Positions 1,028 to 46,085 of a stretch of DNA of 64,000 bases are shown piece after piece. The notes beneath the pieces are model-generated. The model was not told where the DNA came from. It did no database searches and saw only the letters and a list, made by a program, of their open reading frames with translations. Numbering within the stretch: the first letter of the stretch is position 1; the number at the start of each line of letters is the position of its first letter. The translations under genes were made by a program, and so were the position numbers. The stretch covers positions 1 through 64,000 of the forward strand of contig JANQIE010000063.1 in the NCBI GenBank assembly GCA_028282295.1. Reading direction: 5' to 3'. Source of the DNA: Desulfobacterales bacterium (GTDB taxonomy: Bacteria > Desulfobacterota > Desulfobacteria > Desulfobacterales > JANQIE01).

Positions 1028-1144
1028 GCAATTAAGAATTGGGAATTATGAATTAAGAATTGTGGGCGCGGCGTTCCGCCGCGATCCGTTTTTAAATAGA
1101 TAACAACCACAATTCCTAATTCTTAATTCCCAATTCTTAATTGC
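1028..1144. repeat. Family R3 inverted repeat between fliQ and fliR
   Basis: A 117-bp imperfect palindrome whose arms are built from the AT-rich unit AATTAAGAATTGGGAATTA. The left arm starts GCAATTAAG at 1028 and the right arm ends CTTAATTGC at 1144. Related units occur near 3215, 21540, 39510 and 46048. Transcribed in the fli operon it would fold into a long stem without a classical U-tract. Confidence 0.8.
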
Positions 1145-21522: not shown

Positions 21523-21602
21523 ATCCGGTTACAAATGATCTCCATCCGCAATTCTTAATTTTTAATTCATAATTCTTCACGGGCTCATGGGGTTCCCCCC
21601 CC

Positions 21603-36995: not shown

Positions 36996-38315
36996 ATGAC
37001 AGCACACTCCCGGATGTCAACGGATGTCAAAGGCGGCGGCGGCAGTCTTCCTCTTGAACAACCTGAAACCGAGCACCGCAACGACCGCCCCTTGAAAATC
37101 TGCCTCTTGAGCTACCGGAGCAATCCGCACTGCGGCGGCCAGGGGGTCTATATCAAGTACCTGAGCCGGTCGCTGACCGCGTTGGGGCACCGGGTGGATG
37201 TGCTGTCGGGACCACCCTACCCCGATCTCGATTCGCCGGTGCGCCTGCTGCGCCTGCCAAGCCTCGATCTTTACAATCCCGAAGCCCTTTTCCGGGTTCC
37301 CACCATCGCGGAGCTCAACGATCCGGTCAACCTGATGGAGTGGCTCGGCGTGTCCACCATGGGCTTTCCCGAACCGTTCACCTTCAGCCTGCGCGCCTAT
37401 CGCTACCTGCGCCCGCGCCTGGGGGCCTACGACATCATTCACGACAACCAGTGCCTGGCCTACGGCTTGTGGGCCCTGAGCCGGCTGGCACCCCTGGTGG
37501 CGACCATCCATCACCCGATCACCGTGGACCGTCAAATCGCCGTGCGTTCGGTCCGGTCACTTTATAAAAAACTCAAGCATTGGCGCTGGTATTCGTTTGT
37601 CGGCATGCAGAAACGAGTTGCCCGCCGCCTGTTGCGTATTCTCACCGTGTCGGTTTGCGCGGCCGACGATATTCGCCGGGAGTTCAACATCGACAGGGAC
37701 CGTTTCCGAATCGCACCCAACGGTATCGACACCGACCTTTTTGTGCCCCAACCGGAAATTGAACGATGCCCCCACCGCCTGATCGTGACGAACAGCGCCG
37801 ACACCCCCCTAAAAGGCTTGTACTACCTGCTGCACACCGTTGCCCGGGTCGCCGCGGTCCGGCCGGTGGAGTTGGTGGTGGTCGGGCAACCCAAAAAAAA
37901 CGGCGGCATCGAACGCTTGATTCGAACCCTGGGTATCGGCGACCGGATCACTTTTACCGGCCGCATCGATGCGGCGCGCTTTGTCCGTCACTACGCCCGC
38001 GCCACGGCCGCCGTGATACCGAGCGTCTACGAAGGTTTTGGCCTGCCGGCCGGCGAAGCCATGGCCTGCGCGGTGCCGGTTATCAGCACCACCGGCGGGG
38101 CCCTGCCCGAAGTGATCGGCGACGGTGGCATGTTGGTGCCGCCACGCGATATCGGCGCGCTGGAAGCCGCCATCCACCATGTCTTCAATCATCCCAAATG
38201 GGCACAAGCCCTGGCTCTGAAAGGCTACAACCGCGTCCAAAGCCGCTTCACCTGGCGCAATACGGCCGAACAGACGGTGCGCGTCTACCGTGAGGCCATC
38301 GATGCTTACCGTTGA
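36996..38315 (+). CDS. Glycosyltransferase family 4 (GT-B fold)
   Basis: With the ATG at 36996 the product has 439 residues. It has the N-terminal acceptor half (SNPHCGGQGVYIKYLSRSL, a glycine-rich loop) and the C-terminal donor site YEGFGLPAGEAMACAVPVIS (E-x7-E motif). No membrane segment is seen, so it acts in the cytoplasm or at the membrane face on a sugar-nucleotide donor. The methyltransferase gene starts inside its last codons. The pair may modify a surface glycan; the substrate is unknown. Confidence 0.88.
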   Translation: MTAHSRMSTDVKGGGGSLPLEQPETEHRNDRPLKICLLSYRSNPHCGGQGVYIKYLSRSLTALGHRVDVLSGPPYPDLDSPVRLLRLPSLDLYNPEALFRVPTIAELNDPVNLMEWLGVSTMGFPEPFTFSLRAYRYLRPRLGAYDIIHDNQCLAYGLWALSRLAPLVATIHHPITVDRQIAVRSVRSLYKKLKHWRWYSFVGMQKRVARRLLRILTVSVCAADDIRREFNIDRDRFRIAPNGIDTDLFVPQPEIERCPHRLIVTNSADTPLKGLYYLLHTVARVAAVRPVELVVVGQPKKNGGIERLIRTLGIGDRITFTGRIDAARFVRHYARATAAVIPSVYEGFGLPAGEAMACAVPVISTTGGALPEVIGDGGMLVPPRDIGALEAAIHHVFNHPKWAQALALKGYNRVQSRFTWRNTAEQTVRVYREAIDAYR

Positions 38316-39048
38316 CTTTAGCCGCCTTGATATCCCCGCCGACGCCCCGGCAGGCAGTTTTCGCATTCTTGATATCGGCTGCGGTTCGGGCCGCCACAGC
38401 GGCGCCGCCATCCAGTATCCCGCCACCCTGACCATCGGCGCCGATATCAAATGGACCGATGTCGTCCAGGCGCGCCAACGTATCCACGAACACCGTTACA
38501 TGGGCGTCTGTAAGGGACGCTGGGGATTGACAACCACCGACGTCACGGCGTTGCCGTTTGAAAACGCCTGTTTTGATCTGGTTATCTGTGCCGAGGTGCT
38601 GGAACACATCCTTGACCACCACCAAGCGATTCGGGAACTGGTCCGCGTTCTAAAACCGGCCGGCGATCTGGTTGTCAGCGTCCCGCGCTTTTGGCCCGAA
38701 GCCTTGTGCTGGCTGCTTTCCAGACAATACCGCACCAGCGAAGGCGGTCATATCCGCATTTTTCGCCGCCACGCGTTGGTGCGCAGGGTTACAAGCAACG
38801 GCATGCATTTGCGCGGCACCCATCACGCCCATGGCCTGCATGCCCCCTTTTGGTGGCTTAAATGTCTGGTGGGACCGGAACGAATCGACAGCCGCCTGGT
38901 CAATTCATACCATCGGCTACTGGTCTGGGATATGATGCAGCGCCCCCGCACGACCGTACTGCTTGAACGCCTGTTGAACCCGGTGATGGGCAAAAGTCTG
39001 GTGATGTACTTTAAAAAAAACGGCTCCGGTAACGCACGGCCGTCATGA
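38302..39048 (+). CDS. SAM-dependent methyltransferase (class I)
   Basis: The 248-residue product has the SAM-binding motif FRILDIGCGSGRHSGAA near residue 20, the acidic loop with CAEVLEHILDHHQAIRELVR near residue 100, and LKPAGDLVVSVPRFWPEA. This is the Methyltransf_11 pattern. The ATG at 38302 lies 14 bp before the end of the glycosyltransferase gene, so the two are coupled. The likely role is methylation of a glycan or lipid-linked sugar made by its neighbour. The target is not known. Confidence 0.85.
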   Translation: MLTVDFSRLDIPADAPAGSFRILDIGCGSGRHSGAAIQYPATLTIGADIKWTDVVQARQRIHEHRYMGVCKGRWGLTTTDVTALPFENACFDLVICAEVLEHILDHHQAIRELVRVLKPAGDLVVSVPRFWPEALCWLLSRQYRTSEGGHIRIFRRHALVRRVTSNGMHLRGTHHAHGLHAPFWWLKCLVGPERIDSRLVNSYHRLLVWDMMQRPRTTVLLERLLNPVMGKSLVMYFKKNGSGNARPS

Positions 39049-39504
39049 CCCAAAGGCAAATTCCATGGCAAGCGACCCGACGTTGGTTTGAATCGGGACG
39101 ATGACAACCGGCCGGGCGTCGCCATGATCGATGGGGTGGCCGGAGCCGCTCAACGCCGTGGCCAGAGACGATTTGCAATTGCGCCCCAAGCCTTCCAGGG
39201 CAATGTTGAGTTGCCCGCAGATCATGTTGGTGATTTCCCCCACGGCATCCTTGACATCATCATTCAATTCCGTCATCGGTTCGCCGAACATCTGCGACAC
39301 CACATGCAGGATGCATTGCGCCGAATAACTGACCGCCACCGACCCCTCAACGTCTCCGGCAAACTGAATCATCCCGGTAACATCGCCCTGGGCCTGGGGG
39401 CCGCTTTTGGCAGTCGGCGTTTGCACATTTGCCTGAATCGCGGCCAGGGTTTTCAGCGTTTTCAGGGTCGCATCAATGATTGGGTTGACTAGTGCGGCAT
39501 CCAT
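39043..39504 (-). CDS. cheX: CheX-type chemotaxis phosphatase (copy 2)
   Basis: The 153-residue product begins MDAALVNPIIDATLKTLKTL and has the active-site E-x-x-N in DAVGEITNMICGQ. It resembles the copy at 28010 over its full length (MDA..NP.I.AT start, MFGEPMTELNDDV), so they are paralogues. It starts with ATG at 39504. It is the last gene of the MCP-SpoIIE-STAS-ADP-ribosylglycohydrolase series. An R3 unit (about 39509-39535) lies upstream. Confidence 0.87.
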   Translation of the reverse strand: MDAALVNPIIDATLKTLKTLAAIQANVQTPTAKSGPQAQGDVTGMIQFAGDVEGSVAVSYSAQCILHVVSQMFGEPMTELNDDVKDAVGEITNMICGQLNIALEGLGRNCKSSLATALSGSGHPIDHGDARPVVIVPIQTNVGSLAMEFAFGS

Positions 39505-39550
39505 AGGGCGCAATTAAGAATTTAAAATTAAAAGTTGTGATTTTTTTCGT

Positions 39551-40453
39551 TTAAAATGCATCCAACAGACCGGTCAGGGTCGTGTAGTTTTTCAGCTCTT
39601 CCAACCAGGACGACGGCAGGTCGGCGGCGTGTTCGGCGGCACCCAAAATCATGCCCACGGCCATGCCGCGGGCGGCGGAATCGCCACCGGCCATCACGTT
39701 TTCAATCAAGGCTTCCGGCAAATTGTCTTCGTAACGGGCCGTCAAATGTATCACCGCCGGCAAGGCCCCTTCAACGGCACACATCTGGCCGAACTGTTTG
39801 ATGACCTCACGGGTCGGCCGGCCGGCACTCGCAATACCGGCCTCAATCCACTGGGCAAAAGGCTCCCGGTCAAAATGATCGGCCTTGGCGCGCTGCACGG
39901 CTTGCAGCGGTTTAGCGCCCTTTAGTACCGCCAGGACCACGCGCGCCAAAAACTCGGCGCTGTCGAGCACCAGCGGATGGTTATGGGTCAAGGCGGTTTG
40001 GGCCCGAACCGCTTCTACCATCGCGTCCGGATCGTTGTGATGGGCCGGGATCACCGGCGCGATCCGCGCGGCACCGCTAAAATCGGTTGAGGTTGAACCG
40101 GCCGACTTCGGCGGCCGGCCTTGCGCCAGATTTTGCAACGTAATCTTGGTGGCATGATCGACATACCCGTCGTACGCATCAAACAGGGCCTGCCACTGCC
40201 GGGCAAAATGATCGCGTTCAAACCGTTTATTCGCGGCGATCGATGCCAGCAGCACCAGAGTCTGGTCGCCGTAGTGGGTTTGATCCCCGCCTGTTTTGGT
40301 CGGATGATACCCATCCTTGGGCGGCGGCAACAAACGATCGACCCGGCCGATGGTCTCATCGATCAGTTGGGTATCATAGATCCAGTGTGCCCCCAGTGCC
40401 AGCGAATCAGCTACAAACGAGGCAATCACGGCGTTTTTTGCACACTTGCTCAT
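39551..40453 (-). CDS. ADP-ribosylglycohydrolase family protein
   Basis: The ATG at 40453 has GGGGAGGA four bases before it and gives 300 residues. IASFVADSLALGAHWIYD near the start and AGGDSAARGMAVGMILGAAE near residue 250 fit PF03747. The usual GGDTDT metal-site motif is changed to GGDSAAR, as in J1-crystallin-like members, so true hydrolase activity on ADP-ribose is uncertain. It lies between STAS and CheX genes on the same strand. Its role in signalling is inferred only from this neighbourhood. Confidence 0.85.
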   Translation of the reverse strand: MSKCAKNAVIASFVADSLALGAHWIYDTQLIDETIGRVDRLLPPPKDGYHPTKTGGDQTHYGDQTLVLLASIAANKRFERDHFARQWQALFDAYDGYVDHATKITLQNLAQGRPPKSAGSTSTDFSGAARIAPVIPAHHNDPDAMVEAVRAQTALTHNHPLVLDSAEFLARVVLAVLKGAKPLQAVQRAKADHFDREPFAQWIEAGIASAGRPTREVIKQFGQMCAVEGALPAVIHLTARYEDNLPEALIENVMAGGDSAARGMAVGMILGAAEHAADLPSSWLEELKNYTTLTGLLDAF

Positions 40454-40490
40454 CGGCTCCTCCCCTTTAAAAACAACATCAAAAAAAGAA

Positions 40491-40799
40491 TCAGGCACTT
40501 GTAATCGTAAAAATCGTATCGAGTTTAACCACTTTCAGTAAATCATAAACAGCCTTGTTGGCATTTTCAATGGCCAGCCGCCCACCTTTGGAAGCGATCG
40601 CTTTGTAGAAAATCAGCATTTTGCCGATACCGGCGCTGCCGATGTAATTGACGCCGCCAAAATCAAACACAATCTGCTTGCAGTTGGACAGATCCAATTC
40701 ATTGAATCCGGTCTTCAACTTATTGGCCCCCAGTTCGTCGATATCGCCGCGAAGTTCAATGCGAATGGAATCGCCTTGTTGATCGACAGTCATCTCCAT
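40491..40799 (-). CDS. STAS-domain anti-sigma-factor antagonist
   Basis: The 102-residue single STAS domain contains KQIVFDFGGVNYIGSAGIGK, where the Ser in the YIGSAG loop is the usual phosphorylation site. Such proteins bind and release a HATPase-type kinase. That fits the upstream gene, whose product carries both a SpoIIE-type phosphatase and a HATPase domain. It starts with ATG at 40799, with AAGGAG nine bases upstream, 63 bp after the kinase gene. Confidence 0.9.
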   Translation of the reverse strand: MEMTVDQQGDSIRIELRGDIDELGANKLKTGFNELDLSNCKQIVFDFGGVNYIGSAGIGKMLIFYKAIASKGGRLAIENANKAVYDLLKVVKLDTIFTITSA

Positions 40800-40862
40800 T
40801 TTAAAAAACTCCTTTTTTTAAAAGTCGGTTGTATTCACTCGGCTCTGCGGACCAGGCAGGGA

Positions 40863-43800
40863 TCAACCGTCATCGCTTGCGCCCGCCGGTGCAATGTCGG
40901 CTGCCGCCGGTTTCAAAGGCCGATGAAAAACAAGATGAATATGACGTCCGTGATCTTCCCACCAAAGTTGATCGGTCAGGTGGCGCATCAGGTAAATCCC
41001 CCGGCCGGACGACCGGGTCATGCCCTGCGGGTCGGTGGGATTGCCCAGCCGGTTGAAATCAAACCCCGGCCCACTGTCGATAACCTGCAAATGCAAATCA
41101 TTGCCGAAGCGCCATCTGACCGTGATCGGTTTATCGAGTGCTTCGCCGTGACCATGCTTCCAGGCATTTAAAATCGACTCTTCCAGCACCAGGCGAAAAT
41201 TCTGCCAGGCGTCGTCGATGCCTGATCGCGCGCCTTCGGTGGAAATACGCGCCGCCAGTGTTTTGATCTGCCCGGCCAGCGATTCCACCGAGTGCGGCCG
41301 AATCACCTGTTGCTCACAACGATTGTATGCTTCCACTTCAAGCCCGATGAGGGTCACGTCGTCAGCAGACGTATTTTTCCCGTCGGGGATCACGGTTTCG
41401 TCGCACAGGGCCGCGATCTTTTGCAACAGGTCCTGGCAGATGATGGCAACCGGCTTGGGAACCGGTTGCGTATCCAGCACATTGTGCGTCATTCGGCCCA
41501 GCCGCTCGCCATTGATTACAAAACTCCGGTTGCGCTGGGGCATTTCCGTGAGCCCGTCGGTATAAAGCACCAACCGGTCCCCTACCTGAAGTTGGATGCG
41601 GCCGGCAGTAAACGCAACGCCGCCGATCATCCCGATGGCCAAATTGCCGCCGGCTTGATCCGTGTCGGGAATCAGACGCACCTCGCGGCCCCGGATCAGG
41701 AGAAACGGCGGGTGGCCGCATGCCGCGTAGTGCATGGTCAACGACGCATGATCAATCTCAAGGGTGATGGCGGTAAGAAAATCAGCGGTGGCAAACGAAT
41801 CCAGCTCACAAATCCGGTCGTTCAGGCAGGACATGGTTTGCGCCATTGTCAGCGTCCGGTCGTCGAGCAACTCATGATGAATCAAATCGGTGATGATACT
41901 GCGCAAGACGCAACCGACTTCATGACCGGACTGGTCTTTCAAACTGACAATCGTGCGGCCGGTGCGTCCCTCGTCGTCCGCGGCAATGGTTCGCAAAAAA
42001 TAATGATCACCGCCCTCGGCGTAACAGCGCGCCGCCTGGGCCTGAGCGAACAATGCCAGTTTCGGGTTCAAGGGAGTATAGCGGGCGATCCGGCCGTTTA
42101 CAAGCCCCAAAAGACTTTTCGACAGATCGATGCTTATGCTCTGCTTGCGCATCAGTTGCTTGATATCGGTGATATCGATCAGGCTTTGGACCACGACCTC
42201 CCGGTCGCCAACCGGAAAACGCGTGTGGGTGCGGCGAACATGAATCGTATGGTCCGAATCCGGATGCAGCACCACATCGCTGCCACCCCGGTCCCCGCAT
42301 GGGATCTCGCGGGGGCACAGCCCAATTCGATCAACGCAGACAAAATCATGGTAATCCTTGCCGATCAGGGATGCAGGACGGTAGCCGAACAATTTGGCCC
42401 CAAAAGGATTGATATCGATGATGTTGCCCGCTTTGGCATCGATAACAACCACACCGGCCGGAATCGTGGCCATGATCATCCGCAGGTAGGCTTCGCTGTT
42501 TCTCAACTTCGCCTCGGCATGCTTGGCCTTGGTGATATCCTGCCCGAACCCGATAATCTCGATGATCCGGCCGGTGTCATCACGATTGACAATCGAGTTC
42601 CACGCAATCGTGATTTTTTGCCCTGCGCGGCTGGTCAGAGTCATCTCATACGCTTTGACGTCTTCGCTTTCCAAAGCAGCGAGAAGTGTTTCAACCTGAT
42701 GGTGCTCCTGGTCCGGATAAAGCGTCTGCCACCAACTGCGCCCGACCAATTCTTCTGCGGTATAACCGGTAATCCGTTCGCCGGTTTGATTGATAAACGT
42801 CGTCGTGCCGTCCGGGGTAATACCGCAAATGACCGAAGGGGAAGATTTAAAAATCCGCCGGGTCTGATCGCGTTCGGCCCGCAGAGCGTCTTCCATCTGC
42901 TTGCGGGCCGTGATATCGATGATAAAACCGCGAATGCCGGCCGGTTGCCCCTGATCGGTAATCAGGCTGGAATGAAACAAGGCCGGAAACCGGCTGCCGT
43001 CCTTGCGCAGCGCCGTATATTCATTCAGCCCGGTTTTCTCACCCTTGTAAATCCGGAGGCTGTTTTGTAGCGCCCGCTCACGATCGGCCGCATCGATCAA
43101 ATCAAAACCGTTCAGTCCGTTTTGAAGATCTTCTTTTGTGTAGCCGAACTGCTTATACGCCTGTTGATTGACAAAGATCACGGTGCCGTTCCGGTCGAGT
43201 TCGAAAATTGTTTCGGGCAGCATTTCAGCCAGCTCACGAAAACGCCCCTCGCTCTTGGCAAGCTCATCGCGGACAAGTTTTTCATCGGCCACCGCCCGAT
43301 GGGCAAAACGCACGATCAGAACCGCCGCCACCAGGATACCGAGACACAGGCCCGCAATCACAAGTGATCTGGTGCCGTTGAAAACCATGCCGCACGCCCG
43401 GTAACATTGGTACTCATCAACCAGCCCCACCACCGTGAAACCCGGCCACGCGGTCACGTCCTGCCGGTGAAACCAATAGCGATTGCCGGCGGCATCGATG
43501 AGCTGATCCGGGGCAACGGCGTTCAAGTCCGGCGCGACCGGCAGCGCTTCCGGACCAACGGTCCGGATTTCAGAGCCAAGCCGCCCCCCGCGCCATGTAG
43601 GCGCGCCGGCCACGACCCGGCTTTTGGCATCGACCAAAAGCCAATGGCCGGTGATCGATGCAGTCAGGCGTCTTTCCAGGCGGTCAAAAGAACCGGCCAC
43701 CAGAATCGCCCCCAAGTAGTTGTCCTGATGGTCGTTGACGGTTGCAACTGCTGCCACACGACGGCCGGCCGGATCGGCCGCATCGATGAAACGCACCCCT

Positions 43801-44219
43801 GACGCGTCATCCGGGATCGCGGCCACATCGCCGCGCCAGTTAAAACCGGAAGCGCCGGCCGATGCGCCGGCATGGACCAGACTCGCGCTGGCCTGAGGTT
43901 GGTAAAGCAGGACGGTTTGCAATTCACCTTGCCGGATGACGCCGGACAGCATGTGTTGGACGACCTGACGCGTTACCCGGTTTGGACGCTGCAATACCCG
44001 TCCCACCGCATGCTGGTGGCTCAACAGAAGCGCCGTGGTTTGATATTTTTCCAGATGGGATTCGATCTGCGCCTGAACCGACCGGGCCACCAAAGCCGCC
44101 TGCAACCGGCCGTTCACGGCGATATTGCGGTTAATATCGTGGTGGTACAATAGCCCGCCCACCAGCGCGGACGTGATCGCCAGGAATGCCAACCCATAAA
44201 TAACAAGGCGAATACGCAT
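40863..44219 (-). CDS. Membrane receptor with three PAS domains, SpoIIE phosphatase and HATPase kinase
   Basis: The 1118-residue protein has a membrane helix (about 4-24), a periplasmic sensor region (about 25-283) and a second helix (about 284-304). Three PAS domains follow (about 325-440, 450-570 and 580-700; for example GRFRELAEMLPETIFELDRN). A SpoIIE/PP2C phosphatase (about 700-930) keeps acidic residues in EGGDHYF and LVLYTDGLTEMPQ. A HATPase domain (about 985-1100) has LEESILNAWKHGHGE and QVIDSGPGFDF. It can in principle both phosphorylate and dephosphorylate the adjacent STAS protein. The upstream neighbour is an MCP. Confidence 0.88.
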   Translation of the reverse strand: MRIRLVIYGLAFLAITSALVGGLLYHHDINRNIAVNGRLQAALVARSVQAQIESHLEKYQTTALLLSHQHAVGRVLQRPNRVTRQVVQHMLSGVIRQGELQTVLLYQPQASASLVHAGASAGASGFNWRGDVAAIPDDASGVRFIDAADPAGRRVAAVATVNDHQDNYLGAILVAGSFDRLERRLTASITGHWLLVDAKSRVVAGAPTWRGGRLGSEIRTVGPEALPVAPDLNAVAPDQLIDAAGNRYWFHRQDVTAWPGFTVVGLVDEYQCYRACGMVFNGTRSLVIAGLCLGILVAAVLIVRFAHRAVADEKLVRDELAKSEGRFRELAEMLPETIFELDRNGTVIFVNQQAYKQFGYTKEDLQNGLNGFDLIDAADRERALQNSLRIYKGEKTGLNEYTALRKDGSRFPALFHSSLITDQGQPAGIRGFIIDITARKQMEDALRAERDQTRRIFKSSPSVICGITPDGTTTFINQTGERITGYTAEELVGRSWWQTLYPDQEHHQVETLLAALESEDVKAYEMTLTSRAGQKITIAWNSIVNRDDTGRIIEIIGFGQDITKAKHAEAKLRNSEAYLRMIMATIPAGVVVIDAKAGNIIDINPFGAKLFGYRPASLIGKDYHDFVCVDRIGLCPREIPCGDRGGSDVVLHPDSDHTIHVRRTHTRFPVGDREVVVQSLIDITDIKQLMRKQSISIDLSKSLLGLVNGRIARYTPLNPKLALFAQAQAARCYAEGGDHYFLRTIAADDEGRTGRTIVSLKDQSGHEVGCVLRSIITDLIHHELLDDRTLTMAQTMSCLNDRICELDSFATADFLTAITLEIDHASLTMHYAACGHPPFLLIRGREVRLIPDTDQAGGNLAIGMIGGVAFTAGRIQLQVGDRLVLYTDGLTEMPQRNRSFVINGERLGRMTHNVLDTQPVPKPVAIICQDLLQKIAALCDETVIPDGKNTSADDVTLIGLEVEAYNRCEQQVIRPHSVESLAGQIKTLAARISTEGARSGIDDAWQNFRLVLEESILNAWKHGHGEALDKPITVRWRFGNDLHLQVIDSGPGFDFNRLGNPTDPQGMTRSSGRGIYLMRHLTDQLWWEDHGRHIHLVFHRPLKPAAADIAPAGASDDG

Positions 44220-44314
44220 CGAAAGCTATTCCGTGCTGTTCTGAAAAAAAGCGGGCGGCGCACATGCCGCCCTTGACGTTAAATCGATTCCATTTACCGA
44301 ATTGATACGACGAT

Positions 44315-45919
44315 CTAAAAATCCTTGAAATCGGAAGACTCGATAGCAGGGGCTTTTGTCACCGGATTGGTTAGCTGTTCGACCTGCGGCGCAGCCGGCC
44401 CGGCAGCCGGTTCGGTTTTCGTTTCCGGCCCGGACGCCTCCAAAGCAGGCTGCCGCTGCCCGGCGGTCCGGCCGAAAACCACGCCCTGTAACGTAGCGAC
44501 AAAGCCGCGCATCTCCTGCGACTGTGCGGAAAGTTCTTCCGCCGCCGCGGCCGTTTCCTCAGCCGTGGAGGCGACCTTCTGAGTGACAGACTCCATCTCA
44601 CAGGTTCCTTTGCTGATCTGATCGATGGCCGTTGCCTGCTCTTTGCTCGCCAGGGTGATGGAGCGGGTCTTTTCCCCCATGGTGGTCGCCGATTCGATGA
44701 TCCCTTCAAAATCCTGATTGACTTCCTTGATGGCGTGGGTGGCCATGGAAACGCGCCGGACAGTGGAATCGAGAAGCTTTTGTGTATCCTGGGCAGCATC
44801 GGTTGCCCGAATCGCCAGATTGCGCACCTCATCGGCCACGACGGCAAAACCGGCCCCGGCCTCGCCGGCGCGCGCGGCTTCAACCGCCGCGTTCAATGCC
44901 AGCAAGTTGGTTTGAAACGCAATTTCATCGATGTTTTTAATGATATGGCTGATCCGGTCACTGTCGTTTTCAATTTGCGTCATCTGCTGAGTCAATTGCA
45001 CCATGGCTTTGAGCGACTGGCCCGACTTTTCGATGTTTTCGTTCATCAACGCCTGCGCCCCCTTTGTCAAACCGGCGGTCTGCGTGCTTTGAGCGGCCAG
45101 TTCGGCAATGGTGGCCGATGTTTCCTCAATGGAGGCGGCCTGTTCGCTGCTGCCCGCCGCCAGGGACTGCCCGACGGCCGAAACCTGGTTTGACGCAGCG
45201 GTAACCTGGTCGGCGCTGTTATTCAATCCGCAAACAATCCGATCGATCGGCCGGGCAATGGAGCGCGCCATCAAATAGGAAAGCACAAGCCCCAGACAAG
45301 CCACAACCGCGCCGAAAATCCCCAGAGTGTATATCAACCGGCTGATCTCGGCATCGACATCGTCGACATAAATCCCCGAGCCGACAATCCAGCCCCACTG
45401 GGGCAATAATTTGACATACGAAATTTTGGGCACCGGCCGGTCCGCGCCGGGTTTGGGCCAGTAGTAATCGACAAAACCGGCGCCGCTTTGCCGGCAGACC
45501 TTGATCATTTCTTTAAACAGAAATTTTCCGTTCGGATCCTTGAGCCCCGAAATATCCTGACCGTCAAGTTTCGGCTTCATGGGGTGCATGATCATTTTGG
45601 GGTGCATATCGTTAATCCAGAAATAATCCTGTTTCCCGGGATCGGTATTTTGCACCTGTTCGTAGCGCAACCCTTTGATTGCGGCCAAAGCCTGAAATTG
45701 GGCGGCTTGCACCGGAATCACCCCATTTTGGGCCTGGCCGGCATAATGGTTCAGCACACTCCAGGCAGTTTCCACCAGATGCCGGGTTTTAAGATACTTG
45801 GCATCGTACATACTCTTTTTTGTCTTAGGAACGATCCAGAACCCGGCGACTGCAAAACACATCACGATCAGCACACCCAATCCCAGAATTCGCGTGGAAA
45901 GCTTAAATCGGTCCAGCAT
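44315..45919 (-). CDS. Methyl-accepting chemotaxis protein with Cache-type sensor
   Basis: The ATG at 45919 has AGGAGG four bases before it and gives 534 residues; the frame extends upstream without support. There is one membrane helix near residue 10-30 and a second at about 205-225. A single-Cache sensor lies between them (YFWINDMHPKMIMHPMKPKL is typical). The signalling hairpin tip is intact: EIAFQTNLLALNAAVEAARA, then GEAGAGFAVVADEVRNLA. The C-terminus is Pro/Ala-rich with no CheR pentapeptide. A sigma-28-like site lies 65 bp upstream. Confidence 0.93.
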   Translation of the reverse strand: MLDRFKLSTRILGLGVLIVMCFAVAGFWIVPKTKKSMYDAKYLKTRHLVETAWSVLNHYAGQAQNGVIPVQAAQFQALAAIKGLRYEQVQNTDPGKQDYFWINDMHPKMIMHPMKPKLDGQDISGLKDPNGKFLFKEMIKVCRQSGAGFVDYYWPKPGADRPVPKISYVKLLPQWGWIVGSGIYVDDVDAEISRLIYTLGIFGAVVACLGLVLSYLMARSIARPIDRIVCGLNNSADQVTAASNQVSAVGQSLAAGSSEQAASIEETSATIAELAAQSTQTAGLTKGAQALMNENIEKSGQSLKAMVQLTQQMTQIENDSDRISHIIKNIDEIAFQTNLLALNAAVEAARAGEAGAGFAVVADEVRNLAIRATDAAQDTQKLLDSTVRRVSMATHAIKEVNQDFEGIIESATTMGEKTRSITLASKEQATAIDQISKGTCEMESVTQKVASTAEETAAAAEELSAQSQEMRGFVATLQGVVFGRTAGQRQPALEASGPETKTEPAAGPAAPQVEQLTNPVTKAPAIESSDFKDF

Positions 45920-45983
45920 GTTTCCTCCTGAATAATCTCTCCGACCGTCATTCAAAACAATTGGTAATAAAACATTAATCAGC

Positions 45984-46010
45984 ATATCGGAAAACGAGAC
46001 AATATCTTGA
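45984..46010 (-). promoter_or_regulatory. Sigma-28-like promoter candidate for the MCP operon
   Basis: The minus strand reads TCAAGATA, 11 bases, then TCCGATAT. That is 5 of 8 and 6 of 8 matches to the FliA -35 and -10 boxes, with the exact consensus spacing. It lies about 65 bp before the MCP ATG. This is weaker than the site at 34285. Confidence 0.4.
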
Positions 46011-46046: not shown

Positions 46047-46085
46047 GGCAATTAAGAATTGGGAATTAAAAATTAAGAATTGAGG
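46047..46085. repeat. Family R3 unit
   Basis: GGCAATTAAGAATTGGGAAT followed by TAAAAATTAAGAATTGAGG closely matches the left arm of the palindrome at 1028. A degraded REP remnant (CCGGACCCCGGCTTGCGCCG) follows near 46101. Confidence 0.7.

Follow-up and report, generated by a model that had tools for sequence, protein, structure and literature searches.

The chemoreceptor (MCP), SpoIIE/HATPase receptor and STAS genes encoded together in the 64,000-nucleotide stretch of Desulfobacterales DNA analysed here (the window) appear, from profile searches and alignments, to represent a conserved module that travels as a trio in approximately 20 sulfate-reducing bacteria, the majority of which lack flagella, and recurs far beyond chance. 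Based on the domain anatomy of these proteins, their intact catalytic residues, the conservation of the trio and a dedicated MCP clade, we propose, with a probability of about 50%, that the core of the module is a chemoreceptor-linked partner switch in which phosphorylation of the STAS protein acts on the dedicated MCP or its CheA/CheW array.

Gene organization in the window

All five genes lie on the minus strand in the same orientation, with the transcription order MCP, receptor, STAS, PF03747 and cheX. All five proteins passed the Pfam cut-offs, in agreement with the identities (MCP, SpoIIE/HATPase receptor, STAS, PF03747 fold and CheX) assigned by an earlier sequence-only reading of this DNA. 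The features are as follows:

44315..45919, minus strand: MCP, 534 aa from ATG 45919 (Pfam, start and ribosome-binding site, TM prediction, clade tree)
44253..44272, minus strand: hairpin resembling a terminator, with a T-tract after it, in the MCP-receptor intergenic region (sequence reading)
40863..44219, minus strand: receptor, 1118 aa (Pfam, TM prediction, profile match, structure model)
40905..42170, minus strand: SpoIIE and HATPase region defining the family, alignment A1 (homologue alignment)
40491..40799, minus strand: STAS-only protein, 102 aa, with predicted phospho-acceptor Ser55 in NYIGSAGIG (Pfam, alignment)
39551..40453, minus strand: PF03747-fold protein with degenerate metal motifs, outside the conserved module (Pfam, motif alignment, neighbourhoods)
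39043..39513, minus strand: CheX-type CheY-P phosphatase, outside the conserved module (Pfam, E-x-x-N motif)

Better starts were read from the sequence for the MCP (ORF 46051-44315; ATG 45919, preceded by AGGAGG), the PF03747 protein (ORF 40498-39551; ATG 40453, preceded by GGGGAGGAG) and CheX (ORF 39513-39043; ATG 39504). In the window genome, the only member of its family in the compared set, the gap between the MCP and receptor genes is 95 nt, and it contains the hairpin (GGGCGGC-N6-GCCGCCC-GCTTTTTTT, 44272-44253), which has a 7-bp G+C stem. The gaps after the receptor are 63 nt to STAS, 37 nt to PF03747 and approximately 46 nt to cheX. Because of the hairpin, the MCP is probably transcribed separately from the other four genes. 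The description of five genes running in one direction with short gaps thus held for their presence and co-orientation, but not for the MCP-receptor gap, and the idea that they form one five-gene unit is not supported, in view both of the hairpin and of the related module loci, where PF03747 and cheX were not found.

Domain architecture and catalytic residues

The receptor consists of TM1, a periplasmic double Cache domain (DctB-like), TM2, three PAS domains, SpoIIE and HATPase_c_2; the MCP has the layout TM - sCache_2 - TM - MCPsignal and ends in a C-terminal DFKDF tail. The kinase-like and phosphatase domains previously claimed for the receptor were borne out, with HATPase_c_2 and SpoIIE scoring above their cut-offs and their catalytic residues being invariant: the SpoIIE metal-binding motifs (GGDH, KDQSGH, TDG, DD-T) showed no variation across 23 homologues, and the HATPase N- and G-box motifs (E-x3-NAWxHG, D-x-G-x-GF, G-x-G) were invariant as well. 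Profiles matched the structures of SpoIIE and RsbW/SpoIIAB for the receptor and of SpoIIAA/TM1442 for the STAS protein. Ser55 of the latter, located in a GS motif, is invariant, aligns with SpoIIAA/TM1442 and is the predicted phospho-acceptor. The locus therefore has the SpoIIE aspartates, serine-kinase HATPase and STAS serine of partner switches of the SpoIIE/RsbU - RsbW - RsbV type.

Pfam detected no receiver domain in the window receptor, which has TM-dCache-TM-PAS3 in its place, whereas most relatives carry an N-terminal REC domain with the phospho-acceptor Asp, indicating that sensor heads (REC, PAS, Cache) are swapped among members of the SpoIIE-HATPase family. The REC-less members are the window protein and those of loci L104 and L105, and all three keep both MCP and STAS. 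The sensor part of the window receptor has distant homologues in other large Desulfobacterales proteins, whose profile matches DctB. Its alignment-based structure model (mean pLDDT 71) matched double-Cache domains, with DctB at the top, as well as the periplasmic domain of Chlamydia RsbU.

Distribution and gene order of the module

Of 390 Desulfobacterales genomes, 20 encode SpoIIE-HATPase (Sp) proteins of the window family. When the DNA retrieved around these genes was searched with profiles, an MCP gene adjoined the Sp gene in 27 of 29 assessable loci, a count that excludes L090, L099, L107 and L109, which are cut by contig ends; L088 and L101 had no adjacent MCP. STAS was located beside Sp in nearly all loci, the same type of search returning none at L093. 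This bears out the STAS and SpoIIE-HATPase part of the co-occurrence proposed in the sequence-only reading. At 14 loci of other SpoIIE-domain proteins (L064-L077), no MCP match was found within 1.5 kb; MCP-domain genes numbered 27-85 per genome in the four genomes checked, an estimated 1% of genes.

At least four gene orders occurred: MCP-Sp-STAS in most loci; Sp-STAS-MCP in L095, L097, L103, L240 and L241; Sp-MCP-STAS in L105; and, in L102 and L104, an MCP-STAS pair that converges on Sp. Overlaps of 4 bp occur at many of the trio junctions. At L096, L098 and L100, STAS forms a domain of the Sp protein itself, giving genuine REC-SpoIIE-HATPase-STAS polypeptides. A candidate single-polypeptide MCP-SpoIIE-STAS fusion at L239 was rejected, as the SpoIIE and STAS hits (from 3217 and 4576) do not share the reading frame of the MCP hit (from 2102). 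In the wider phylum sample, nothing was recovered beyond the locus of the window and a single SpoIIE-HATPase protein that lacked module neighbours, and a STAS scan of genome contigs hit four loci in Desulfobacterales and, weakly, two elsewhere.

Phylogeny of the module chemoreceptors

A signalling-domain tree built with FastTree, in which 70 other MCPs from four genomes only served as controls, placed all 27 module MCPs, including that of the window, in one clade of 30 (support 0.93) that took in only three controls. An earlier tree with 21 module MCPs gave this clade a support of 0.985. Changes between module and control labels on the tree numbered 4, compared with 23.9 expected from shuffles, and none of the 20 other MCPs of the window genome fell within the clade. 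The three non-module MCPs in the clade were those of L171, L185 and L187, whose loci contained no SpoIIE or STAS matches. Mantel correlations, to which shared species history contributes, were 0.80 for MCP-STAS, 0.71 for SpoIIE-STAS and 0.63 for MCP-SpoIIE. Together, the conserved trio, the dedicated clade and the correlated divergence lend good support, as far as chemoreceptors are concerned, to the earlier suggestion of a partner-switching module tied to chemotaxis.

PF03747 and CheX neighbours

The PF03747 fold of the window protein scored 178 bits (Pfam), and orthologues with 47-53% identity were present in 16 other genomes. None of these orthologues lay near STAS, a window-type SpoIIE-HATPase, an MCP or CheX, and their neighbours were inconsistent, none recurring in more than a few loci. 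PF03747 was rejected as a conserved module partner on the basis of these 16 neighbourhoods, so its part of the proposed co-occurrence failed. Neither a PF03747 nor a CheX match was found at other module loci. Comparison with DraG/ARH ADP-ribosylhydrolases showed that the fold is present but the metal ligands are not, the orthologue clade keeping GDQ and GGDSAARG where hydrolases have TDD and DxDT. As most metal ligands are missing, and the neighbours of this clade wander, the ADP-ribose-like signal previously suggested is unsupported. The window CheX retains its fold and the catalytic E-x-x-N motif. Both genes look like local neighbours, perhaps co-transcribed, rather than mechanistic parts.

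Flagellar, sigma-factor and chemosensory genes

Flagellin and FlgM were absent from 10 of the 12 module genomes tested, both being present only in the window genome and G024. RpoS did not exceed the curated cut-off in any of the 12, in which weaker sigma-70-family matches exist, and the module loci contained no recognisable sigma or anti-sigma gene. These results make a flagellar or RpoS output of the HsbR/CrsR kind unlikely as a general target of the module; sigma factors other than RpoS may be targets. CheW-domain genes were present in all tested module genomes. The window genome has 12, those listed being on contigs other than the module's, and the genes inspected near the module in the window include no che cluster. 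The module-bearing genera include Desulfonema, a filamentous glider (PMC6390638).

Comparison with known systems

The sequence-only reading did not recognise this combination as described, but close precedents exist in the Shewanella oneidensis che1 locus, F7 clusters and a proposal for Campylobacterota. The che1 locus encodes McpA, CrsA (STAS) and CrsR (REC-PP2C-HATPase), so that, as in the module, a chemoreceptor, a STAS protein and a dual kinase/phosphatase are encoded together, CrsR/CrsA forming a partner switch (PMC9855816). However, that locus is part of a full F7 che operon aimed at RpoS, whereas the genes inspected near the window trio include no che cluster, RpoS stayed below the curated cut-off in the module genomes tested, and Cache and PAS domains take the place of the REC of CrsR in the window receptor. 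F7 stage 1 and 2 clusters contain an mcpA-like receptor, an anti-sigma factor antagonist and a serine phosphatase, with a function described as unclear (PMC7184735); the same trio thus travels together in gamma-proteobacteria, although within cheA/cheW clusters and in a different phylum, whereas the window trio is not in such a cluster. For Campylobacterota with REC-PP2C-STYK, STAS and a chemoreceptor, an untested, one-sentence proposal states that STAS may affect chemoreceptor conformation (PMC9239204); in Desulfobacterales, such a link is supported by the varied order of the genes and by a clade of MCPs specific to the module. In Pseudomonas aeruginosa, the REC-PP2C-HATPase protein HsbR controls Ser56 of the STAS protein HsbA in a motility-linked system (PMC5085249, PMC6482189); its input comes through HptB, and its output, through FlgM, HsbD and RpoS, differs from that proposed for the Desulfobacterales module. 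The CrsR/HsbR architecture is not that of the window receptor, but most relatives do have REC. Sinorhizobium CheS is a STAS protein that binds CheA and is in this respect similar, acting on the chemosensory core, although the available portion of that report describes no SpoIIE/HATPase partner for it (PMC12654446). The Desulfobacterales module is set apart from these precedents by its dedicated MCP clade, its exchangeable sensor heads and the lack of a che cluster among the genes inspected near it in the window.

Proposed mechanism and alternative explanations

In the proposed mechanism, the double Cache domain of the receptor would sense a periplasmic small molecule, and its three PAS domains would sense cytoplasmic cues. 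Judging from the families to which these domains belong, the HATPase would phosphorylate Ser55 of the STAS protein and SpoIIE would remove the phosphate, with the receptor setting the balance and the phosphorylation state of STAS constituting the output. The likeliest target of STAS would be the MCP encoded alongside it or the CheA/CheW array holding that MCP, such that a slow serine-phosphorylation signal tunes the chemosensory array. More tentatively, and with somewhat less confidence than an even chance, this specialised MCP clade may be controlled directly by serine-phosphorylated STAS rather than through a sigma factor, mainly in gliding or non-flagellated sulfate reducers and with interchangeable REC, PAS or Cache heads. 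Several observations are points against the core model: the hairpin between the MCP and receptor genes in the window, the lack of an MCP at L088 and L101 and of STAS at L093, and the module-free clade members L171, L185 and L187.

A CrsR/HsbR-like expression switch, acting through capture of a sigma or anti-sigma factor by STAS or the HATPase domain and leaving the MCP as an accessory or mere input, is rather unlikely but deserves consideration, since the domains are the same as those of CrsR/HsbR and CrsA/HsbA, controllers of RpoS and FlgM, and the window genome has FlgM, flagellin, sigma-70-type factors and two further short proteins that match HATPase_c_2 strongly. However, curated RpoS (0/12) and FlgM (2/12) are rare or absent in module genomes, none of the loci had a recognisable sigma or anti-sigma gene, and the dedicated MCP clade is left unexplained. 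Alternatively, the MCP could be the input, its CheA phosphorylating the REC domain of the SpoIIE-HATPase protein, as in Wsp with its REC-GGDEF, and STAS being a separate output. There is precedent for chemosensory systems whose output is not the motor, and the phospho-acceptor Asp is present in most relatives, but this is improbable, as the window, L104 and L105 lack REC and still retain MCP and STAS; the linkage therefore cannot owe its existence in general to REC phosphorylation by MCP-CheA, and action of STAS on the MCP is favoured over action of the MCP on REC. The simplest reading would be that STAS is the shared element, acting on the MCP or its array.

That all five genes form one operon, with the PF03747 enzyme processing an ADP-ribose-like signal and CheX resetting the output of chemotaxis, is very improbable; the co-orientation, the 37-46 nt gaps downstream of STAS and the E-x-x-N motif of CheX are consistent with it, but the absence of PF03747 orthologues from module neighbourhoods, their lack of consistent neighbours, the missing metal ligands and an AT-rich intergenic repeat between PF03747 and cheX argue against it. 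The hairpin is the one feature in favour of a purely chance arrangement of functionally unrelated genes, which is contradicted for the trio by its recurrence in varied orders and by the MCP clade and is hardly credible overall, although for PF03747 and cheX a chance neighbourhood is likely.

If STAS acts on the receptor as in the proposed partner switch, arrays would gain a serine-phosphorylation input in addition to methylation and CheY-type control. The idea of STAS switches touching chemotaxis gains concrete, testable loci, including the dedicated receptor clade, kinase-phosphatase-STAS fusions, and STAS and MCP pairs with the kinase gene elsewhere; the same question also bears on the function of the F7 stage 1 and 2 equivalents.

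Other features of the locus

PADLOC returned no match for the window receptor, STAS or PF03747 proteins. The surroundings of the module in the window include FtsK, methyltransferases and a glycosyltransferase, and downstream a plus-strand gene (38290-39048) is convergent on cheX.

PF03747 orthologue clade

The Desulfobacterales PF03747 clade, comprising the window gene (39551-40453, minus strand) and orthologues from 16 related genomes (L032-L047), conserves HWIYD-like, THYGDQ and GGDSAARG motifs, which replace the hydrolase metal motifs. On these residues, the clade is probably a pseudo-enzyme subfamily or one with a different chemistry.

Surroundings of the module

An AT-rich intergenic repeat, AATTCTTAATT(N), occurred in eight copies in the window versus 0.4 expected. 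One copy separated the PF03747 gene from cheX, and two were on the upstream side of the chemoreceptor (MCP) gene.

At several related loci carrying the MCP, SpoIIE-HATPase receptor and STAS module, a gene 5' of the MCP encoded an unusual fusion of REC, two copies of DUF4388 and DegV. Immediately 3' of STAS, a set of these loci encoded a REC-HisKA protein of 230 aa that lacked an ATPase domain. A conserved pair also lay 3' of the module, consisting of an AAA_5 ATPase similar to PADLOC PDC-M26A and a protein of ~650 aa with a nuclease-like FDAKY motif.

Repeat sites and flanking genes (L, fetched module loci)
Window 1029-1143, 21550-21574, 39511-39522, 46049-46081: AT-rich repeat
L087:1469-3769: REC-DUF4388 (x2)-DegV fusion; similar genes at several module loci
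L086:5629-6321: REC-HisKA protein; homologues at L087, L090, L094, L096, L101, L106, L109
L086:2929-5316, L094:1661-3583, L101, L106, L109: AAA_5 ATPase and ~650-aa protein

Elsewhere in the window genome, contig C72 (locus L110) carried genes for one SpoIIE, one short HATPase_c_2 and one STAS protein, probably the genome's second partner-switch set.
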